A stretch of 64,000 nt of DNA from Candidatus Poribacteria bacterium (GTDB lineage Bacteria > Poribacteria > WGA-4E > WGA-3G), in NCBI GenBank assembly GCA_022822085.1, contig JAJECK010000035.1:1-64000 (forward strand), written 5' to 3'. Of this stretch, positions 4,472 to 27,096 are shown piece after piece. Within the stretch, counting starts at the first letter, position 1. Each line of letters begins with the position of its first letter. The notes under the pieces are model-generated. The model worked only from the letters and a program-made list of their open reading frames with translations. It was not told where the DNA came from and made no database searches. A program made the position numbers and the translations under genes.

Positions 4472-5200
4472 ATGTATATGCGGCATTGGTTACAAAGTCC
4501 TTCAAGCCTTACACACGGCAACATCATAAAACGCGAAATCTTTAGTAAACGAACAGAAGAAAATACAGATGATGAGGGGGCAATTCTCAGGTATGTTGAC
4601 AGTTTCTCCCGATGCTATCTTGAACCGCGTATCGCTTCTGTTCCAACTTCATTAGATGACCGACAACTTGTTTTCTATATCGTTGACGGCAGTGGAATTT
4701 TTGAAGCAGGTGACCTGAAACAGCAAGTTACTGAAGGAGACGCAATTCTTATCCCTCCAGGTCTCATCCATATCTTACATAACACAGAAAACACACCTTT
4801 AGAATTCCTGATATTAGAAGAAGTCCTTCCAGACGGTGTAGAAGCACCACGTAAAGACGCACTCATCCGAAACTATCGTGAACGTCCGCTATCACAAGGA
4901 CATTGGACACACCTCGTACATCCCATTTTCGGAGAAGACGACGGTTTAGTGGTGTTACATTCAGTGTTGATGGTGCGGATTGAAGCCATGCAGACACCAG
5001 ATACACACGGACACGATTCGGATATGGACGAAGTGTGGTATATGCTGGAAGGAAACGGCATACATGTTGTTAGCAGGAATGTGTATCGTCAGATGCCAGG
5101 AGATGCCGTCTCTGTTGCACCATCAAACCCCGGACATAGTCTAATCAATGACACAAATGAACCGCTAAAGACTTTCTATTTCGCGCGGTATAACAGGTAA
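4472..5200 (+). CDS. Two-domain cupin protein
   Basis: The 242-residue protein holds two cupin barrels. The first (about 60-135) reads VFYIVDGSGIFEAGD, GDAILIPPGLIHILHN; the second (about 165-240) reads THGHDSDMDEVWYMLEGNG and PGDAVSVAPSNPGHSLIND. The second has the HxH and glutamate pattern that usually binds a metal, so it is the more likely active or sensing domain. No signal peptide is visible, so it is cytoplasmic. It ends 10 bases before the sulfatase start and has its own candidate promoter, so both probably form one transcript. A sugar isomerase or a ligand-binding role are both possible. The ATG at 4478 is an alternative start. Confidence 0.75.
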   Translation: MYMRHWLQSPSSLTHGNIIKREIFSKRTEENTDDEGAILRYVDSFSRCYLEPRIASVPTSLDDRQLVFYIVDGSGIFEAGDLKQQVTEGDAILIPPGLIHILHNTENTPLEFLILEEVLPDGVEAPRKDALIRNYRERPLSQGHWTHLVHPIFGEDDGLVVLHSVLMVRIEAMQTPDTHGHDSDMDEVWYMLEGNGIHVVSRNVYRQMPGDAVSVAPSNPGHSLINDTNEPLKTFYFARYNR

Positions 5201-5210
5201 AGGAATAACT

Positions 5211-6668
5211 ATGGCAGACAACCCGCACGTCCTACTAATCAGCACAGACCATTGGCCTAACTCACTACTCGGAGTCAATGACCATCCAGACATACAAACA
5301 CCAACACTTGACTCTCTTGCCCGCGCGGGCACCCGATTTACTAACGGATACAGCGAATGCCCTGTCTGCGTCCCCGCACGCAAAACCTTGATGACAGGAA
5401 CAACGACACGCACGCACAAAGATAGGGTTTTCAACGACAAAAAAGGAATCAACGGACTCCCAACTATAGCACAGACCTTTCGCGATGCTGGCTATCAAGC
5501 GTACGCAGTCGGCAAACTGCACGTTTATCCACAACGCGATCGCATCGGGTTTGACGATGTGATCTTAGGTGAAGAAGGCAGATTACAATATGGGGCAGTT
5601 GACGACTATGAACTCTTTCTCGGTGACAGAGGGTATGCGGGGCAGCAGTTCGCACACGGCATGTGTAATAACGACTATCTCAACCGTCCTTGGCATCTCC
5701 CCGAAGATTGTCATGTCACTAACTGGAGCACACAACAGATGGTGCGTCAGATCAAACGCCGCGACCCAACGCGTCCCGGATTCTGGTTCCTGTCCTACTG
5801 CCATCCGCATCCACCATTAGCACCGCTGCAATGTTATATGGATATGTATCGGGATATTGATATTGAAATGCCCTTTCACGGCGAATGGTCTAAAGATACT
5901 GACAAACTTCCGTTGCCACTAAAATCACGTCAGATGCAGGATGCACGATACAATGAAAATCTAATCCGTACTGCGCGACAAGCATTTTACGCACTCAGCA
6001 CACACATCGACCATCAATTGCGGCTCGTCATCGGCACCCTGCGCGAAGAAGGTTTGTTGAACAACACAATCATTCTCTTTACATCTGACCACGGTGATAT
6101 GCTTGGAAATCATAGAATGTGGGCAAAACGGCTCTATTATGAAGATTCTGCTAACGTCCCAATGGTCCTTGTCGGCACTGCAGGCGACGACAGAGTCGGA
6201 CACCACAGAGTTGATAACCGTCTCGTTGGATGGCAGGATGTCATGCCAACGCTCCTCCATCTTGCTGGGGTTGATATTCCTGATACTGTAGATGGTATGC
6301 CGATGGTAGGTGACAAAAAACGTGAATGGCTATACGGGGAAGTCGGTGATGTTGGAAGTGCGACACGCATGATCCATGAAGGACGCTACAAACTTATCTA
6401 CTACGCCACCGGAAACTACAGACAACTCTTTGATTTAGAAGAAGATCCAAGAGAACTAAACGATCTGTCCGAATCTCCTGAACACGCTGAAGTCCTTGAG
6501 CGATTGACAAACTTGTTGATTGGTGAACTCTATGGTGGTGATGAAAAATGGGTGCAAGATGGTGAACTTATTGGGTTACCTGACAAAGCATATCGTCCAT
6601 CTGCTAACCGCAGTCTGTCGGGACAGCGTGGAATTCACTGGCCACAATCTCCATCTACCGGACGTTGA
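5211..6668 (+). CDS. Sulfatase (formylglycine-dependent, type I)
   Basis: The 485-residue protein is an alkaline-phosphatase-fold sulfatase. Metal ligands fit LLISTDHWPN near the start and FTSDHGDMLGNHRMW (about 290-304). The nucleophile motif C-V-P-A-R (Cys53-Arg57) followed by KTLMTG is the CxPxR signature in which the cysteine is oxidised to formylglycine; a maturation enzyme (FGE or anSME) must be encoded elsewhere. There is no obvious signal peptide (MADNPHVLLIST), so it may act in the cytoplasm, unlike many secreted sulfatases. The substrate is unknown; sulfated polysaccharide from a marine host or algae is a reasonable inference. It follows the bicupin closely. Confidence 0.9.
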   Translation: MADNPHVLLISTDHWPNSLLGVNDHPDIQTPTLDSLARAGTRFTNGYSECPVCVPARKTLMTGTTTRTHKDRVFNDKKGINGLPTIAQTFRDAGYQAYAVGKLHVYPQRDRIGFDDVILGEEGRLQYGAVDDYELFLGDRGYAGQQFAHGMCNNDYLNRPWHLPEDCHVTNWSTQQMVRQIKRRDPTRPGFWFLSYCHPHPPLAPLQCYMDMYRDIDIEMPFHGEWSKDTDKLPLPLKSRQMQDARYNENLIRTARQAFYALSTHIDHQLRLVIGTLREEGLLNNTIILFTSDHGDMLGNHRMWAKRLYYEDSANVPMVLVGTAGDDRVGHHRVDNRLVGWQDVMPTLLHLAGVDIPDTVDGMPMVGDKKREWLYGEVGDVGSATRMIHEGRYKLIYYATGNYRQLFDLEEDPRELNDLSESPEHAEVLERLTNLLIGELYGGDEKWVQDGELIGLPDKAYRPSANRSLSGQRGIHWPQSPSTGR

Positions 6669-8912: not shown

Positions 8913-10596
8913 TCTCAATCCGAAGCATTTTGAAACAGTTCAACAGATACTCGCGGAACATGTCCCTGGGTGTGAAGTTCGCGCTTTTGGGTCACGGGTA
9001 AAATGGACAGCTGAGGATTATTCCGATCTCGATCTTGTCGTAATTAACAGTCAAAAATCCAATCTGAGACAGATTCGGCAATTAACGGAGGCATTTGAGG
9101 AATCTAATCTACCGATCCGGGTTGATGTCTTAGATTGGCATACGATATCGGAAGAATTTAAGAAAATAATTACAGAGAAATACGAGGTGATACAAGGAGC
9201 AAAACCTGTTAAAGAAAATGAGGAATCTGCGGTAACTTCCAAGAATTCAAGTATACAGAATGACCTTTGGAATCAGGTAAAACTCGGAGAGGCTGTCAAA
9301 ATCAATCCTCAGCGAAAACTAAAAAAAACAGAGCAAGCATTTCATGTTGCTATGCGGGATGTTGAGGTATACAGGCGAGAGATTAACTCACATTCATATA
9401 AAGAATTTAGCGGATCTGGCACACGGTTTCAAAATGGGGATACGCTTTTAGCTCGTATCACACCTTGCCTTGAAAATGGGAAAACTGTGTATATAAACTG
9501 TCTCGAATCGAATCAAATTGGACATGGATCAACCGAGTTTATTGTACTATCTGGAATTGAGGGAAAAACAGATAACCTATTTGTATACTATTTAGCAAGA
9601 GATCCGAGTTTTCGAACCTTCGCGATCCATTCAATGCAGGGTTCTACAGGACGACAACGAGTTATGGCTAATTCAATAAATGCGTTTGAATTTGTCCTGC
9701 CCCCGATTAAGGAACAACACCGCATCGCTCACATCCTCGGCACACTTGACAATAAAATTGAACTCAACCGACAGATGAATGAGACATTAGAAGCAACTGC
9801 ACGGGCAATTTTCAAATCGTGGTTTGTAGATTTTGACCCTGTGAAAGCAAAGATGAAAGGGCAGAAACCTGTAGGTATGGACACCGAAACTGCCGACCTA
9901 TTTCCTTATGCGTTTGAGGATTCTCCGCTTGGGAAGATTCCGAAAGGATGGGAAGTAGAAAAAGTTGGGAATCTTGTTGAAATTGTTAAAGGGAGATCTT
10001 ATCGCAGTAGTGAACTAACAGAATCAGACGTTGCTTTGGTTTCTATTAAATCAATTATGCGCGGTGGTGGATACCGCCCAGATAATTTGAGACCCTATAC
10101 CGGAAAATATAACTCTGAACAAGTCATTACCCCTGGTGAGATTGTTATTGCTTATACTGACTTAACACAAGAAGCTGAGATTCTTGGAAAACCCGCAATT
10201 GTTCGTGGAGACGAAAAATATCAGACACTTGTTCCATCTCATCATTTAAGAATTATACGTCCCTTAGAATCGACAGTTTCTGTTTGGTTTCTCTATTGTC
10301 TTTTCAGAGAACGGCATTTTCAATCTCATATTTATGGATATGCAAACGGTACAACTGTCTTAGGATTAAGTAAAGATGGAGTACCGAGGTATCAATTTGC
10401 TTTGCCACCAGAAGAAGTCCGGTGTCTTTTTGATTCGGTTGCAGAGCCACTTTTCGCTAAAATTGAATCCAATGAAAAAGAATCCCGCACGCTTGCCAAA
10501 ACCCGCGACACGCTATTGCCGAAGTTATTATCTGGTGAAATTCGCGTAGACGATGCAGCTGAGATATTGAAGGTAAAAGATGGCAGAAAATCCTAA
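8905..10596 (+). CDS. hsdS: Fusion of an MNT nucleotidyltransferase (antitoxin) with type I specificity subunit HsdS
   Basis: Residues 1-99 are a minimal nucleotidyltransferase: AFGSR at 27-31, then D-L-D at 41-43 and a third acidic residue in VDVLD (73-77), which together give the catalytic triad of the MNT family. A linker (about 100-112, rich in Lys, Glu and Ser) leads into a full HsdS: first target-recognition domain about 113-275, conserved helix with IKEQHRIAHILGTLDNKIELNRQMN, second domain beginning PKGWEVEKVGNL, and the closing helix ending TLLPKLLSGEIRVDD. No Met codon lies between the two parts until inside the first recognition domain, so a separate HsdS start is not evident. The gene overlaps HEPN by eight bases. 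A frameshift artefact is unlikely, since the frame is continuous. Confidence 0.88.
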   Translation: MIDLNPKHFETVQQILAEHVPGCEVRAFGSRVKWTAEDYSDLDLVVINSQKSNLRQIRQLTEAFEESNLPIRVDVLDWHTISEEFKKIITEKYEVIQGAKPVKENEESAVTSKNSSIQNDLWNQVKLGEAVKINPQRKLKKTEQAFHVAMRDVEVYRREINSHSYKEFSGSGTRFQNGDTLLARITPCLENGKTVYINCLESNQIGHGSTEFIVLSGIEGKTDNLFVYYLARDPSFRTFAIHSMQGSTGRQRVMANSINAFEFVLPPIKEQHRIAHILGTLDNKIELNRQMNETLEATARAIFKSWFVDFDPVKAKMKGQKPVGMDTETADLFPYAFEDSPLGKIPKGWEVEKVGNLVEIVKGRSYRSSELTESDVALVSIKSIMRGGGYRPDNLRPYTGKYNSEQVITPGEIVIAYTDLTQEAEILGKPAIVRGDEKYQTLVPSHHLRIIRPLESTVSVWFLYCLFRERHFQSHIYGYANGTTVLGLSKDGVPRYQFALPPEEVRCLFDSVAEPLFAKIESNEKESRTLAKTRDTLLPKLLSGEIRVDDAAEILKVKDGRKS

Positions 10597-20322: not shown

Positions 20323-21546
20323 ATGAAGTCTCTTACACTATTTTTTCTTGTTCTGCTTAGTTCAACAATACTCATTGCGTGTGAGAAGCTGCCGCCGTTA
20401 CCGGTCAAAGATGTTCTTGATCCTTCGCAAACCAATACGCAATTCGTTCAAAGGGCATTGTCTGACCTCGCTGGCACCGCTGCTGAACGTAAATTTGTTG
20501 ATCTCGCTAATGCAGCAAACGGCGTTACAGAGATACTTGCAGTTGATGATGGCACATCAGTGGAACCATTATTTTCAAAAATTGCTAAACTTGCGCATGA
20601 GGCAACTGTTTTAGAACGCGCATTTGCTAAAGCAGGATGTGAATATTTACGGAAATTTGCTGAAGCATCAATGAACACAGTCCGGGCATACACAATCAGG
20701 GATGCAGCTGGCATGGAAAAGGCATGGCAGAACCTTGCTCAAGAGGTTTTAAATGCAGAAACGGTATTGCATCAGTTGACAGCTGAAAACGGATTCATTC
20801 CTTTCGCTTTCGGATACGGTCTATATATTGATGCTCCCGAGGGCTATTATTATATTCCGAGATTAGATTATCCACAATATAAACTGGGTGAATTCTGGGT
20901 GGTGTACGACAGCAGAATTCACCCGGTCCCTGAAACAAGTGCAGATGTTATTGAATTTCTGACTGACAAAGGATACAACGCGACACCGGAAAGAGGGCGG
21001 GCCTATTTAGAAACTGTATACTTAGGTGCGGCTGTTGATATGTCTCTAATTGTAGATTATTTGCGAAAAGAATTGCTCAAGATTCCTGGCGTTGCGGTGA
21101 TATATCCCATAGTCATTCGCCGTGGACTATACACTGTCCCCGATCTACCGCCTAAAAATGTCCGAATAATAAATCGTGTAAGGGAAAGATACAATGAGAT
21201 GTGGTGTCAAGGCAACTTTGACGCTATAGACAGTATCTTAACTGATGAAAGCGAGTTAGATTTCTTTGATTATGCTTTTGTCCGCAACCTGGCAGACATC
21301 TATGCAGAAGAAATTCCCGAAACTACTGAACGTATTCAAATGAATCAGTTTTCACTCCGTTCAATTGCTTTAGAATTCTTAGAAATCTACTTTGAGAATT
21401 CAGAGAATACTCTTGACGAGACTATTGAACTCTTTAGACAATCTGTCATAAGCGGCAATATAGATATAGAACATAAAACTTACGATCACTATTACCTTAC
21501 CACTAACTATTGGAAGCAACTTGTAACTGATCTTATGAATCAATAA
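20323..21546 (+). CDS. Lipoprotein of a tandem paralogous family, copy 1
   Basis: The 407-residue protein starts with a signal peptide and lipobox (IACEKLPPLP, Cys about 20). It is the first of four tandem paralogues separated by 12 bases. Shared blocks are AERKFVDLANAANGVTEILAVDDGTSVEPLFSK-like N-terminal sequence, FIPFAFGYG near residue 165, and a C-terminal block with RYNEMWCQGNFDAIDSIL and LDFFDYAFVRNLADIYAEE. The C-terminal block is nearly identical to copy 3. The family is not recognised. All copies are predicted to be lipid-anchored in the envelope, and nothing in the sequence shows a catalytic site. Confidence 0.75.
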   Translation: MKSLTLFFLVLLSSTILIACEKLPPLPVKDVLDPSQTNTQFVQRALSDLAGTAAERKFVDLANAANGVTEILAVDDGTSVEPLFSKIAKLAHEATVLERAFAKAGCEYLRKFAEASMNTVRAYTIRDAAGMEKAWQNLAQEVLNAETVLHQLTAENGFIPFAFGYGLYIDAPEGYYYIPRLDYPQYKLGEFWVVYDSRIHPVPETSADVIEFLTDKGYNATPERGRAYLETVYLGAAVDMSLIVDYLRKELLKIPGVAVIYPIVIRRGLYTVPDLPPKNVRIINRVRERYNEMWCQGNFDAIDSILTDESELDFFDYAFVRNLADIYAEEIPETTERIQMNQFSLRSIALEFLEIYFENSENTLDETIELFRQSVISGNIDIEHKTYDHYYLTTNYWKQLVTDLMNQ

Positions 21547-21558
21547 TGGAGTCTTCAG

Positions 21559-22887
21559 ATGCTTTCTCCACACGGTATTACCGCATCAGCGTTCCGAATG
21601 AAGTTTTTTAAACTACTACCTTTTGTCGCGCTCAGCGCAATAATGCTCACCGGATGTGAGAGACAATTTGTATCACCAATAGACCCTATTCATCCACCTT
21701 CAACTAATACACGATATGCTGCACAAAAGGCACTGTCGGACCTCGCTGACACCGCTGCTGAACGTAAATTTGTTGATCTCGCAAACGCAGCAAGTGACCT
21801 CTCAGAAACACTCGCAATTGACGATAGCACATCAGTGGAACCAATATTTTCAAAAATTGCTAAACTTGCTGGTGCAGCAACTATCTTGGAACACGCATTT
21901 AGTGAAGCAGGATGCAAAATTGAATTGCAAGGTTTTGCTCACGCATCAATGGACGCAGTCCGGGCATATACAATCAGGGATGCAATTCAGATGGAACAAG
22001 CATTACAAAACCTTGCTCATGCCGTATCGGCAACTGAAATGCAATTAAGACAATTACCAGTTGAGAACGTTTTTATGCCATTTGCTTTCGGATACGGACC
22101 CGCCATCGATACTACATGGAACGAGTTTTTTCATACTCTCGGATCAAACGACCCACTCTATGTACCCGGTCTAATCTTGATCCAGTACGACGAGACAATA
22201 CGCCCCATCAAGGAATCAAGAGCAGCTGTAACAGACTTTTTGTCTCAAAAAGGATACAGTGTAAAAGTGGAAGGATGGTCAAGGTTTGTTGGATTTGGAA
22301 AAAACAAATGGTTCCATCTCAAAGACTACTCAACACAAGTACAAGTAGAAGAGGTGACCGGTTATTTTGAGTCTATAGACTTAGGTGCGGATGTTGATCC
22401 GCTGCTTATTATGGGAGAATTAATCGACATCCCTGGTGTTACTCTTGTGCAGCCCGCTGTCTTTGAAGCTCCTGTTGATCCTGTTCCCCCTTCAGAAAGT
22501 TATTATATAATTCGTAGGGTAGCAGCTAAATATAATGAGGCGTGGTGTCGAAACAATTTCGACGTTATAGACAACATCTTAATTGAAGAAACCGGTTTAG
22601 ATTTCTTTGATTATACTTTTGTCCGCAAGCTTGCTGACATTACAGCGGAGGAACTTCCCGATACCGTAGAAAGCATTCAAATGAATCAGTTTTCTTTCCG
22701 TTGGATAGCTGAAATATTTCTTATGATTTACTCTTGGAATCCAGAGAGAACCATTGATGAGACTATTGACCGTTTCCGCGAATATATTAGAACTTGGGGT
22801 GTAGGTATTAGTCATCTGAAATTTGATCACTACTACCAAACTACTGATTATTGGAAGCAACTTATCAAGGATCATTTGAATAATTAA
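21559..22887 (+). CDS. Lipoprotein of a tandem paralogous family, copy 2
   Basis: The 442-residue product starts MLSPHGITASAFR, and only then comes the signal peptide (MKFFKLLPFVALSAIMLTGC; lipobox LTGC). The extra first 13 residues match the start of the gamma-glutamyltransferase downstream (MQSPHGSAFRPS), at both the base and residue levels, and the same holds for copy 4. Internal start at 21598 (ATGAAG) is possible. The rest aligns with copy 1, including FMPFAFGYGPAID and LDFFDYTFVRKLADITAEE, but it has a longer middle part. Function unknown. Confidence 0.75.
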   Translation: MLSPHGITASAFRMKFFKLLPFVALSAIMLTGCERQFVSPIDPIHPPSTNTRYAAQKALSDLADTAAERKFVDLANAASDLSETLAIDDSTSVEPIFSKIAKLAGAATILEHAFSEAGCKIELQGFAHASMDAVRAYTIRDAIQMEQALQNLAHAVSATEMQLRQLPVENVFMPFAFGYGPAIDTTWNEFFHTLGSNDPLYVPGLILIQYDETIRPIKESRAAVTDFLSQKGYSVKVEGWSRFVGFGKNKWFHLKDYSTQVQVEEVTGYFESIDLGADVDPLLIMGELIDIPGVTLVQPAVFEAPVDPVPPSESYYIIRRVAAKYNEAWCRNNFDVIDNILIEETGLDFFDYTFVRKLADITAEELPDTVESIQMNQFSFRWIAEIFLMIYSWNPERTIDETIDRFREYIRTWGVGISHLKFDHYYQTTDYWKQLIKDHLNN

Positions 22888-22899
22888 TGGAGTTTTCAA

Positions 22900-24138
22900 A
22901 TGAAGTTCATATCACTACTTTTTCTTTCCATATTTAGCACAATAATGTTCATTGCCTGCGAATTTGTCCGCCCATTACCAGGCAAAAATGTTCCTGATAC
23001 ACCGCAATCCAGCACGCAATTAGCGCAAAGTGCCTTGTCAAGTCTTGCTGACACAGCAAATGAACGCGCTTTCGTTGACCTTGCCAACGCAGCAAACGAC
23101 CTTTCAGAGACACTCGCAATTGATAATGGAACATCCGTGGAACCGATGTTCTCAAAACTTGCTAAACTTGCTGATGTAGCAACTAACTTTGAACATGCAT
23201 TTAGTAAAGCAGGATGCGAAATAGAATTTCAGAAATTTGATGAAGCATCAATAGACGCAGTCCGGGCATACACAGTCAGGGACGCAGCTGACATGGAACA
23301 AGCATTGCAAAATCTCGCTCAAGGAGCAATGGCAGCGGAAACCGCATTGCGGCAGTTGCCTGCAGAGAATGTCTTCATTCCCTTCGCCTTCGGATACGGC
23401 TTAAACATTGATCTGCCCGAGGGTAACTATTATGACATATTCAAGTCGAATAATTATCCTCCATATAAACTCGGCATCATATCGGTGTGGTACGACAATA
23501 AAATTCGTCCAACGACTGAAACAAGTACAGCAGTAATTGAATTTCTAACTGACATAGGATACAAGGTAACAACAGAAGGTGTAACAACAGAAGGTTTAAA
23601 CTACAATAAAGAAACCATCAATTTAGGTTCGGATGTAGATCCGCGTCTGATTACAAACAAATTGGATGACATTCCCGGGGTTGAGCGCGCACTTCCACAC
23701 CCCATTCCTGTCCCAGATCTTCCTCCATGGCTCGTTCCGCCTCCCCCTGATAGTTTCATAATAAACCGAATGAGGAAAAAATACAATGTTGCGTGGTGCC
23801 AAGGCAACTTTGCCGTTATAGACAGTATCTTAATTGAAGAAAGCGGGTTAGATTTCTTTGATTATGCTTTTGTCCGCAACCTGGCAGACATCTATGCAGA
23901 AGAAATTCCCGAAACTGCTAAACGTATTGAAATGAATCATCTTTCACTCCGTTCAATCGCTTTAGAATTCTTAGAAATCTACTTTGAGAATTCAGAGAAT
24001 ACTCTTGACGAGACTATTGAACTCTTTAGACAATCTGTCATAAGCGGCAATATAGATATAGAACATAAAACTTACAATCACTATTACCTTACCACTAACT
24101 ATTGGAAGCAACTTGTAACTGATCTTATGAATCAATAA
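22900..24138 (+). CDS. Lipoprotein of a tandem paralogous family, copy 3
   Basis: The 412-residue product has a signal peptide with lipobox FIAC (about residue 21) and belongs to the same subtype as copy 1. Its last roughly 95 residues and the corresponding 280 bases (from about 23862) are nearly identical to copy 1, while the N-terminal halves have diverged, a pattern expected from gene conversion or an unequal crossover. A short duplication (VTTEGVTTEGLNY) lies in the middle. The region before it has a proline-rich turn (PVPDLPPWLVPPPPD). Function unknown. Confidence 0.75.
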   Translation: MKFISLLFLSIFSTIMFIACEFVRPLPGKNVPDTPQSSTQLAQSALSSLADTANERAFVDLANAANDLSETLAIDNGTSVEPMFSKLAKLADVATNFEHAFSKAGCEIEFQKFDEASIDAVRAYTVRDAADMEQALQNLAQGAMAAETALRQLPAENVFIPFAFGYGLNIDLPEGNYYDIFKSNNYPPYKLGIISVWYDNKIRPTTETSTAVIEFLTDIGYKVTTEGVTTEGLNYNKETINLGSDVDPRLITNKLDDIPGVERALPHPIPVPDLPPWLVPPPPDSFIINRMRKKYNVAWCQGNFAVIDSILIEESGLDFFDYAFVRNLADIYAEEIPETAKRIEMNHLSLRSIALEFLEIYFENSENTLDETIELFRQSVISGNIDIEHKTYNHYYLTTNYWKQLVTDLMNQ

Positions 24139-24150
24139 CGGAGATACCAA

Positions 24151-25440
24151 ATGCAATCACTATACAGCATTACCACTGCAGCGTTTCGGTTGAAGCTTTT
24201 TACGCTACTTTTTGTAGCAGCACTCAGTGCAACAATACTCACCGGATGTGAGAGACAATTTGTATCGCCGATAGATCCTACTGATCCATCGCAAACTGCC
24301 TCACACTTGGCACAAAAAGCACTGTCGGATCTTGCCAAAACCGCTGCTGACCGTGGATTTGTTGATCTTGCTAACGCTGCAAATGAAGTCGTAAAAGTTC
24401 TCGCAATAGAAACAGGAACGACAACAGGAATGGCATTCTTGAAGCTTTATCGGGAAACATACACCTTACAAAACGCATTTGCTTTAGTAAGCTGCGGGAT
24501 AACATTAGAAGAATTTTATATGGCATCCGGGCGTGCAGCAGAGGCATACATAACAGATCCATACTTAACAGAAGCAGCAGTGGAACCAAGGGACAGGGAA
24601 CAAGTATTGGAAAACCTTGCTCATGAAGCATTGAATGCAGGAACGATATTGCGGCAGTTTCCTGCAGAGAACGCTTTTATTCCCTTTGCCTTCGGTTATA
24701 AGCCCTCCGGCTATCTTCCCTCAGGCAGTGGTGGGACAGTATACTTTTATCCGTGCAACAACGAAATACTCATAAGTTATGATGAAACAATCCTGCCAGT
24801 GATTATAACGCGGGCAGCTGTAGTTGAGTTTCTGACTCTTAAAGGATACGCGATGGTGCAGGAGAAACTACCATCTACCAATTATGAGTTTATAAATTTA
24901 AGTGCGGATGTTAATCCATATTCTATTAGGGAAGAATTACTCTCTATTCCCGGTGTTGCGAGAATAGGTATCTGTGGGGATGACTACATTCCCGGGCCTT
25001 CTATCATAGAAGAACCAACCTTCGATGCTCAACCATTTTTTATTGTCGTAGACCGGGTAAGGGCAAGATATAATGAAGCTTGGTGTCAGGGCAACTTTGA
25101 CGTTATCGACAGCATCTTAATTGAAGAAAGCGGGTTAGATTTCTTTAATTATATTTTTATCCGCAATCTTACAGATATCTATGCAGAAGAAATTCCGGAG
25201 GCTGCAGAACGTATCCAAACAAACGGTTTTTCCCTTCACAGTATAGCAGTTGTGTTTCTTTATATCTATTCTTGGCATTCAGAGAAAAGTCACGAAGATA
25301 TTATTGAACTCTTCCGACAATCCATCAGAGATGGATATGTGGCTATAGAACATGTAAGAGGTGGGATGCGTGTTAAGAATCTATACATCGATCAAATCGC
25401 CCCACCACAACCACCAATCACAATCCGGACAATTCCCTAA
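24151..25440 (+). CDS. Lipoprotein of a tandem paralogous family, copy 4
   Basis: The 429-residue product starts MQSLYSITTAAFR and then carries the signal peptide with LTGC, as in copy 2; the first codons again resemble the start of the downstream ggt gene. It keeps FIPFAFGYK and LDFFNYIFIRNLTDIYAEE but has lost the shared C-terminal end (HYYLTTNYWKQL in the other copies) and ends in a different, proline-rich tail (APPQPPITIRTIP). It is the most diverged copy. Function unknown. Confidence 0.75.
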   Translation: MQSLYSITTAAFRLKLFTLLFVAALSATILTGCERQFVSPIDPTDPSQTASHLAQKALSDLAKTAADRGFVDLANAANEVVKVLAIETGTTTGMAFLKLYRETYTLQNAFALVSCGITLEEFYMASGRAAEAYITDPYLTEAAVEPRDREQVLENLAHEALNAGTILRQFPAENAFIPFAFGYKPSGYLPSGSGGTVYFYPCNNEILISYDETILPVIITRAAVVEFLTLKGYAMVQEKLPSTNYEFINLSADVNPYSIREELLSIPGVARIGICGDDYIPGPSIIEEPTFDAQPFFIVVDRVRARYNEAWCQGNFDVIDSILIEESGLDFFNYIFIRNLTDIYAEEIPEAAERIQTNGFSLHSIAVVFLYIYSWHSEKSHEDIIELFRQSIRDGYVAIEHVRGGMRVKNLYIDQIAPPQPPITIRTIP

Positions 25441-25467
25441 TCATTCAGTAAATAATGGAGGTTACAG

Positions 25468-27096
25468 ATGCAATCACCACACGGCTCAGCGTTCCGTCCG
25501 TCTGTAATGGGCAGTAATGGCATGGTAACATCAGGACACGTACTTGCTTCACAAGCAGGCATCCAAACAATGATGGCTGGCGGCAATGCTGTTGACGCTG
25601 CTATCGCAACTGCCGCCGCACTCGGTGTCGTTGAACCTGCTGGTTCTGGTGTCGGCGGGGATGGATTTATCCTCATCTATTGGGCAGAAACAGGACAAGT
25701 CGCAGCGGTAAATGGAACAGGACCCGCACCAAGCGCAGCAACCCGCGAGACCTACCTCAAAAACGGCGGCATTCCAATGAAAGGCATGCGGAGCGTTTCT
25801 GTGCCCGGACTTCTTGACGCTTGGCTGCTTGCACACGAACGATACGGTACCCTCAAGTTAGATGAAGTTTTCGCGCCAGCAATCTCTCTTTGTGAGGAAG
25901 GATTTCCAGTTAGTCATAGACTTGCAGGAGGATTAAGAGGAGAAAACGCTCGCTTTGCAGCAGAACCCGATAGCCGCGCTATCTTCACAAACGATGGTGA
26001 ACCGATTCCCGCAGGTGAACTGCTTGCAAATCCAAATCTCGGCACAACTTTTCGAAAAATTGCCAAAGATGGCAGAGATACATTCTACAAAGGCGAAATT
26101 GCAAAAGCCATTGGTGAATTCAGCCATGCTCATGACGGCCTTTTAACAGCAGAAGACCTGGCAGACTTCCATGCACATTGGGATGAACCAATACACGTTA
26201 ACTATCGTGGTTACGAAGTGTATGAAATGCCACCTAACTCAAGCGGACATATCTTACTACAAGAGTTGAATGTTGTAGAGTTATTTGATTTGCAAGCGTT
26301 GGGATACAACACAGCCGAAAGCGTGCATCTGATGGTAGAAGCGAAAAAACTCGCATTCGCTGACAGAGAGAAATACATGGCAGACCCCAATTGGATAGAT
26401 GTTCCCATAGAAGGCATGTTATCTAAATCCTACGCCGCTGAACAGGCAAAACGGATTGATCTGGAGAAAGCTGCTATTGATGTTCCCGCAGGTGGCCCGG
26501 AGTCACATGAGGATACGACCTGTTTCTGCACCGCCGACCGCGCGGGAAACCTTGTCTGTGTGCTGCAGAGTATCCAATCAGGATTCGGTTCCAGTTTAGT
26601 CGCAGGTGACACAGGTATCCTGCTAAACAACCGAATGACCTATTGGCATTTAGAAGAAGATCATCCCAACTGCCTAATGCCGGGCAAACGTGTCCGACAC
26701 ACAATGAATCCTGTCATCGTGACAAAAGATGGAAAACCCATGTTAGCGTGCGGAACACCGGGGGCAGATACACAAGTACAGACAAACCTACAATTGGTTA
26801 CACATGTTCTCGACTTTGGCATGACGCCACAGGAAGCAGTCTCTGCACCGCGATGGCGCAGTCTACAGAACCCGATGGAATCTACGATCCCACACACTTG
26901 CTCAAATCACCTGCAGTTAGAAACACGATTTTCATCAGATACGCAAGACGGTTTAGCGGAAAGAGGGCATGAACTCCAAATCGTCGGGGACTGGGGCGGT
27001 CCAGGCAGCGCACAGATGATACAGGTTCACCCTGAATCAGGGGCACTTATCGGCGGATCCGACCCGAGAACTGATGGATATGCTGTGACTTTTTAG
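25468..27096 (+). CDS. ggt: Gamma-glutamyltransferase family protein
   Basis: Gamma-glutamyltransferases cleave themselves and then transfer or hydrolyse gamma-glutamyl groups such as that of glutathione. The 542-residue protein has the family N-terminus GGNAVDAAIATAAALGVVEPAGSGVGGDGF (about 33-62) and the processing site DTTCFCTADRAGNLVC, where Thr350 is the predicted nucleophile after autocleavage. FGSSLVAGDTGILLNNRM follows. The Met at the start has the ribosome site ATGGAGG. There is no signal peptide, so it is probably cytoplasmic, unlike the classic periplasmic E. coli enzyme. The first 11 codons resemble those of lipoprotein copies 2 and 4 upstream. Confidence 0.9.
   Translation: MQSPHGSAFRPSVMGSNGMVTSGHVLASQAGIQTMMAGGNAVDAAIATAAALGVVEPAGSGVGGDGFILIYWAETGQVAAVNGTGPAPSAATRETYLKNGGIPMKGMRSVSVPGLLDAWLLAHERYGTLKLDEVFAPAISLCEEGFPVSHRLAGGLRGENARFAAEPDSRAIFTNDGEPIPAGELLANPNLGTTFRKIAKDGRDTFYKGEIAKAIGEFSHAHDGLLTAEDLADFHAHWDEPIHVNYRGYEVYEMPPNSSGHILLQELNVVELFDLQALGYNTAESVHLMVEAKKLAFADREKYMADPNWIDVPIEGMLSKSYAAEQAKRIDLEKAAIDVPAGGPESHEDTTCFCTADRAGNLVCVLQSIQSGFGSSLVAGDTGILLNNRMTYWHLEEDHPNCLMPGKRVRHTMNPVIVTKDGKPMLACGTPGADTQVQTNLQLVTHVLDFGMTPQEAVSAPRWRSLQNPMESTIPHTCSNHLQLETRFSSDTQDGLAERGHELQIVGDWGGPGSAQMIQVHPESGALIGGSDPRTDGYAVTF

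Follow-up and report, generated by a model that had tools for sequence, protein, structure and literature searches.

How does a lipoprotein gene come to begin with the first codons of the gene next to it? The locus that raises this question lies in a 64-kb window (the whole stretch of DNA analysed, positions 1 to 64,000 of contig JAJECK010000035.1 from a Candidatus Poribacteria bacterium, genome G000), where four tandem lipoprotein genes are encoded on the + strand directly upstream of ggt, the gene for gamma-glutamyltranspeptidase (25468..27096, + strand, 542 aa; PF01019, E 5.5e-157). Copies 2 and 4 of the array open with a 13-codon segment like the start of ggt, here called the leader, and the signal peptide follows it. 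We consider it likely that the array is explained by an old tandem duplication, with breakpoints at the lipoprotein start and after ggt codon 13, combined with later exchange of gene bodies between copies.

Lipoprotein copies with a ggt-like start

Copy 2 (21559..22887, + strand, 442 aa) begins ATGCTTTCTCCACACGG..TCAGCGTTCCG, copy 4 (24151..25440, + strand, 429 aa) begins ATGCAATCACTATACAG..GCAGCGTTTCG, and ggt at 25468 begins ATGCAATCACCACACGG.TCAGCGTTCCG. A first-pass annotation, made from the letters of the window, had reported that these two copies open with a ggt-like start together with its ribosome-site context, and that the signal peptide begins only after 13 residues; its coordinates and letters were right, and the placement of the signal peptide holds for both copies. 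The copy 2 leader, MLSPHGITASAFR (21559..21597, + strand), runs into the signal peptide MKFFKLLPFVALSAIMLTGC, and the copy 4 leader, MQSLYSITTAAFR (24151..24189, + strand), is followed by a TTG codon where copy 2 has ATG. In copies 2 and 4 the signal peptide (MKFF.../LKLF...) thus comes directly after the 13 residues, and in copies 1 and 3 it begins at codon 1. The ribosome-site context of copy 2, TAATGGAG (21544..21558, + strand; pairing -5.9 kcal/mol; 15/20 nt like the region upstream of ggt), contains a TAA that doubles as the stop codon of copy 1; that of copy 4 reads TAACGGAG. The ggt ribosome site (TAATGGAGG...; 25453..25467, + strand) shows similarity to the upstream regions of copies 2 to 4. 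Copy 3 (22900..24138, + strand, 412 aa) shares the TAATGGAG context and has this ggt-like ribosome site without the leader. Copy 1 (20323..21546, + strand, 407 aa, MKSLTLFF...LIAC) is leaderless and starts 20 nt past the stop codon of a gene that, by its look, we take to be an oxidoreductase gene (Gfo/Idh type).

The resemblance between leader and ggt is real and goes beyond chance. When the first 33 nt of ggt were compared with the 5′ ends of the 238 open reading frames (ORFs) of the window, copies 2 and 4 ranked first and second after ggt itself, with local scores of 26 and 21 against 18 for the next ORF, and shuffled leaders reached the observed score in 3 of 20,000 trials for copy 2 and 26 of 20,000 for copy 4. 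Among the 20 nt upstream of 141 ATG starts, the best matches after ggt were copies 3, 2, and 4 (15, 15, and 13 of 20), and an unrelated start at 10580 also scored 13/20. Aligned without gaps to the long ggt start of genome G018 (see below), the copy 2 leader is identical at 33/39 nt and 12/13 aa and the copy 4 leader at 29/39 nt and 8/13 aa. A degenerate leader pattern searched in G000 found copy 2 as its only match at 0-2 mismatches and 10 sites, copy 4 included, at 3 mismatches. A leader element dispersed elsewhere in G000 was considered and rejected: there are 11 sites at ≤3 mismatches, compared with 4 for a reversed-pattern control, and copy 2 stands alone at 0-2.

Array position and the junction

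A 15-row lipoprotein profile was searched against 58 genomes of the Poribacteria family. Matches occurred in 24 of them, 7 with full-length copies (G000, G003, G004, and G005 of genus g1, to which the window belongs, and G018, G030, and G073 of genus g2) and 17 with weak or partial matches only. The same alignment, searched against a collection of species genomes, gave six loci, all titled Candidatus Poribacteria. The copies stand directly upstream of ggt in all seven array genomes, and none of the seven arrays lies beside an unrelated ggt start, the arrangement that the first-pass annotation had named as speaking against its proposal.

These arrays contain 19 copies, and the leader is present on none of the 7 first copies and on 11 of the 12 later ones (Fisher p 1.6e-4). 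Six of the seven array genomes have leaders; the remaining one, G030, is the only single-copy locus and is leaderless. Each of the 11 leaders measures 39 nt, as does the long ggt segment, and gives way to [ML]K, where the signal peptide starts; for G073, the leader was defined as the first 13 residues of a copy. By sequence comparison, both the rule of position and a junction common to the leaders can be taken as demonstrated. The spacers point the same way: the body of G004 copy 2, followed by its spacer and the opening codons of ggt, aligns at 83% over 1,305 columns with the body of G073 copy 1, followed by its spacer and the opening codons of the leader of G073 copy 2. One tail leading either to ggt (G004) or to a leader and lipoprotein (G073) is what is expected from a tandem duplication whose right-hand breakpoint fell within ggt. 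Three features of a chimeric gene born by tandem duplication are found here, namely a 5′ part from the adjacent gene, an intact donor at the far end (in 7/7 arrays ggt aligns along residues 1-542 and immediately follows the last copy), and a first copy with the original 5′ end.

On the other flank, a full oxidoreductase-like gene ends 18-21 nt upstream of the first copy in 6/7 array genomes, and in 12 of the 14 g1 genomes that have no array the oxidoreductase tail leads directly into ggt, which represents the empty site. In G004 the oxidoreductase-like gene is reduced to its last codons (L062, about 4851-5315), behind a spacer with inverted repeats as judged by eye.

Long and short forms of the ggt start

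The ggt start was read in 68 orthologs, from the 58 family genomes and 10 order-level outgroups; four duplicate ggt loci (L032, L033, L036, and L047) were dropped, and the order-level genomes G036 and G037 (no close ortholog) and G042 and G044 (ortholog seen) stand outside the 68 rows. All 68 start M-x-[S/T]-P-H, the start having been chosen as the M-x-[S/T]-P closest upstream of the G-x-[N/Q]-G motif, a choice for which zero rows failed and which is biased to that motif. The conservation of this start in 58/58 family genomes and 10/10 outgroups bears out the earlier view that ggt is the source of the leader, an origin that these comparisons can be said to establish at the level of sequence. 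Acquisition of the ggt start from the lipoproteins is ruled out, as the ggt genes of 10/10 outgroups have it; the lipoprotein itself gave no match in those 10 genomes in a single-protein search, the more sensitive profile having been applied to the family only.

Three extra codons, M[Q/E]SPHGITASAFRP, are present in 10 of the 58 family ggt genes (the long form, MQSPHGITASAFRP), and the outgroup starts are of equal long length in 10/10 cases, for example MQSPHGIKFSGFRP. Because it is present in both sets, the long form is most simply the older one. Genus g1 has the short form in 18/18 ggt genes, and genus g2 has both. In the window, the ggt start MQSPHGSAFR (25468..25497, + strand) would be the present-day remnant of the source segment without the three codons ITA: as MQSPHG---SAFRP it needs a gap against the leader, and the long form aligns ungapped. 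The seven g1 leaders have the long-type consensus MQSPHGITASAFR, and since the g1 ggt genes are all short, the leaders keep a ggt start that none of those ggt genes has; preservation of the old form is, on this comparison, well established. With outgroups counted as long, the ggt tree requires 5 switches between the long and short states, and, judging from the ggt starts of g2, loss of the ITA segment may have occurred repeatedly.

Probable translation of the leader and possible selection on it

Shine-Dalgarno-like pairing is found upstream of the leader ATG in all 11 leader copies (-4.8 to -10.7 kcal/mol) and is nearly nil upstream of the internal start in the same 11 (1.2 to -1.9 kcal/mol), where the codon is ATG in 6, TTG in 3, and CTG in 2. 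This pairing and the likeness of the upstream regions support the proposal of the first-pass annotation that the translation signals of ggt were taken over, and the leader is probably translated. Lipoprotein signal peptides are cut off, and by analogy with other lipoproteins, cleavage at the lipobox cysteine would take the leader away together with the signal peptide.

The ratio of non-synonymous to synonymous differences per site (pN/pS) of the leader is 0.40 (bootstrap over codons 0.22-0.74), with 0.30 for codons 6-13 and 0.64 for codons 2-5; it falls within the range seen elsewhere in these genes (0.30 for the signal peptide, 0.49-0.65 for the body). In a star simulation the non-synonymous share averaged 0.72 compared with an observed 0.35, and 0/1000 runs were as low. 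When distinct codon states were counted conservatively, 21 changes were synonymous and 21 non-synonymous, compared with 70% non-synonymous expected (P 0.006); codons 2-5 alone are indistinguishable from neutral (P 0.22), and codons 7-9 in g1 gave 5 and 2 (P 0.03). These counts treat the leaders as a star and ignore shared ancestry, and some of the change may date from the time when the segment was still in ggt; they are suggestive only of selection on the leader peptide. It is a tentative idea, which we doubt more than we believe, that selection now maintains the leader in the lipoproteins, where it would serve as a portable start module for translation and export, extending the n-region and with GITASAFR conserved at the protein level. 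If it were true, the module would let each new copy be expressed inside the array with the mature protein unchanged.

Exchange between gene bodies

A body tree was built from 15 of the 19 copies, and identity was scanned in 18 chosen pairs of those; the G073 copies were found later. On this tree the leader needs 5 changes, compared with a mean of 5.2 for shuffled labels (309/500 shuffles as low), and a grouping supported at 100/99 unites G003 copy 3, which has a leader, with the first copies of G003, G004, and G005, which have none. Window copies 1 and 3 share 95-99% identity in the final 300 aligned nt and 50-80% in the remainder. Within-genome pairs, as far as measured, are similar in stretches only (up to 99%) and none over the whole gene, an undiverged duplication at the same joint not having been the object of a dedicated search. 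The patchy identity and the body tree therefore suggest that bodies were exchanged while the 5′ tag mostly kept to its array position, and the sequences indicate that the leader follows array position better than body phylogeny.

Exchange may also have crossed genera. The body of window copy 4 (24191-25391) is 86.3% identical over 1,234 columns to G073 copy 1, a leaderless first copy (L117:4753-5980), beginning within the first post-leader codon, and the ggt genes of the window and G073 are 80.2% identical. A body identity above that of ggt points to transfer of array DNA between genera, in what is the best cross-genus pair and not a typical one.

Identity of the lipoproteins

A lipobox is present in 19/19 copies: the putative signal peptidase II substrate has a signal peptide ending [TI][GA]C with an invariant Cys column, and a charged n-region and hydrophobic core as judged by eye. 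The four window copies had no Pfam match above cut-off, and an AlphaFold2 model (mean pLDDT 74.6) gave no match at E<=0.001 in a fold search of the PDB. Foldseek lists the PCSK9 prodomain with probability 0.98 at an E of only 0.81, other folds being listed at 0.97, which is weak. A middle domain of ~85 residues (about residues 200-300 of copy 2) is also found, frequently in repeated form, in further small ORFs across many family genomes (for example G026:C111:48922-49551, G081:C1:1561309-1561929, and G016:C75:47800-48678), and by eye it occurs twice in G003 copy 1. A lone lipoprotein ORF in G016:C31 (L066:595-1362, 255 aa) is leaderless and has the signal peptide and middle domain in common with the array proteins; the gene beside it is presumably mnmG.

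Origin of the array

The sequence of events that we favor would begin with a leaderless lipoprotein gene between the oxidoreductase gene and ggt. A tandem duplication would have fused the point after ggt codon 13 to the lipoprotein start codon, so that added copies would start with the ggt ribosome site and first 13 codons and the first copy would keep its own start, gaining no leader because its 5′ end is anchored to the unique flank. The duplication would have occurred while ggt still had the long start with ITA, and the leaders would keep a form later lost by the ggt of g1. Translation would begin at the leader, which would extend the signal peptide on its N-terminal side and be removed with it, and homologous exchange among copies, probably also between lineages, would later have reshuffled the bodies. 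We infer the duplication event itself from its traces. Window copy 3 would need a second step, either a clean deletion of the leader between two in-frame ATGs or conversion by copy 1.

Several observations weigh against this account. Copy 3 is the sole leaderless one among the 12 non-first copies, and array presence needs 6 changes on a quick ggt tree; the sequences indicate that the history of the array includes losses or transfers. On the body tree, the branches with good support require no more than 2 changes of the leader label, and a single clade at 100/99 unites four leader copies (G003 copy 2, G005 copy 2, G000 copy 4, and G004 copy 2); on this evidence lineage plays some part in leader distribution. 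TTG is usable as a start if, as assumed, the first copy of G018 begins with it. The first copies of G004 and G005 have ribosome sites resembling that of ggt at empty sites, and the lipoprotein may have relied on the ggt signal already when it first arrived.

This last resemblance is likewise predicted if a lipoprotein gene entered at the ggt start and duplicated its target, comprising the ribosome site and 13 codons, after which the first copy lost its leader a single time; copy 3, with a ggt-like ribosome site and no leader, shows that clean leader loss is possible. We nevertheless regard insertion as unlikely, as 0/7 first copies carry a leader, the single-copy locus included, and one extra ancestral loss is required. 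The first-pass annotation had proposed that the array grew by insertion at the ggt start; for the expansion, tandem duplication with a breakpoint inside ggt is the better description, in view of the distribution (0/7 first, 11/12 later copies) and the one in-frame junction, and for the first arrival insertion is possible. Alternatively, recombination might repeatedly have copied the ggt start into neighbouring lipoprotein starts, which would suit the frequent exchange of sequence among copies and the ggt-like ribosome sites ahead of the leaders. Agreement of 11/11 junctions makes this highly improbable, as do g1 leaders of ITA length beside 18/18 g1 ggt genes without ITA, by which no conversion by g1 ggt took place after the loss.

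Of the remaining alternatives, one concerns the leader as it is today: it might be an untranslated fossil, with translation from the internal ATG or TTG of the signal peptide. First copies manage without the 13 residues, the internal codon is still ATG in 6/11, and TTG can start translation; we find the idea quite improbable in view of Shine-Dalgarno pairing that is good at the leader ATG and nearly lacking at the internal start in 11/11 copies, an internal TTG in 3/11 and CTG in 2/11, the constant length of the 11 leaders, and the excess of synonymous changes. Chance resemblance or convergence of two start regions might be entertained for a match as short as that in the window itself; given ranks 1 and 2 among 238 ORF starts, the rarity of equal scores among shuffles, and leaders in 6/7 array genomes, its probability is close to nil. 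The old tandem duplication with later body exchange thus stays the reading that we prefer.

The founding joint of a gene array is often unreadable. Here an in-frame tag marks the copies born by duplication, gives the breakpoint to the codon, and orders events, the joint having apparently been made from a long ggt start since lost in g1; it also allows inheritance by array position to be told apart from the exchange of gene bodies. Here, in a natural bacterial setting, genes would have acquired the translation start of a neighbour, and, because signal peptides are known to be cut off, the locus suggests that they tolerate grafted N-termini.

Comparison with known systems

This locus did not turn up among the papers listed by our literature searches. 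The birth of chimeric genes at the joints of duplications is already known, and the locus would be a natural bacterial case of it. We know of no leader from a neighbouring gene in the lpl arrays of Staphylococcus aureus. Those arrays are likened to the present one by arrangement, as tandem lipoprotein gene arrays, and not by sequence (PMC4470592, PMC5187369). In Drosophila, chimeric genes form at tandem-duplication breakpoints inside genes (PMC4503668), and the process is alike in that breakpoints in genes yield a chimeric gene; the present case differs in being bacterial, in a donor that gives a ribosome site and 13 codons, in amplification of the chimera to an array, and in preservation of an older form of the donor. 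Promoter capture by tandem duplication is known in bacteria (Anderson and Roth 1978, as cited in PMC11111574), and there too the duplication joint supplies new expression signals; the difference is that here a translation start and coding sequence would have been captured, in a natural old event and not under laboratory selection.

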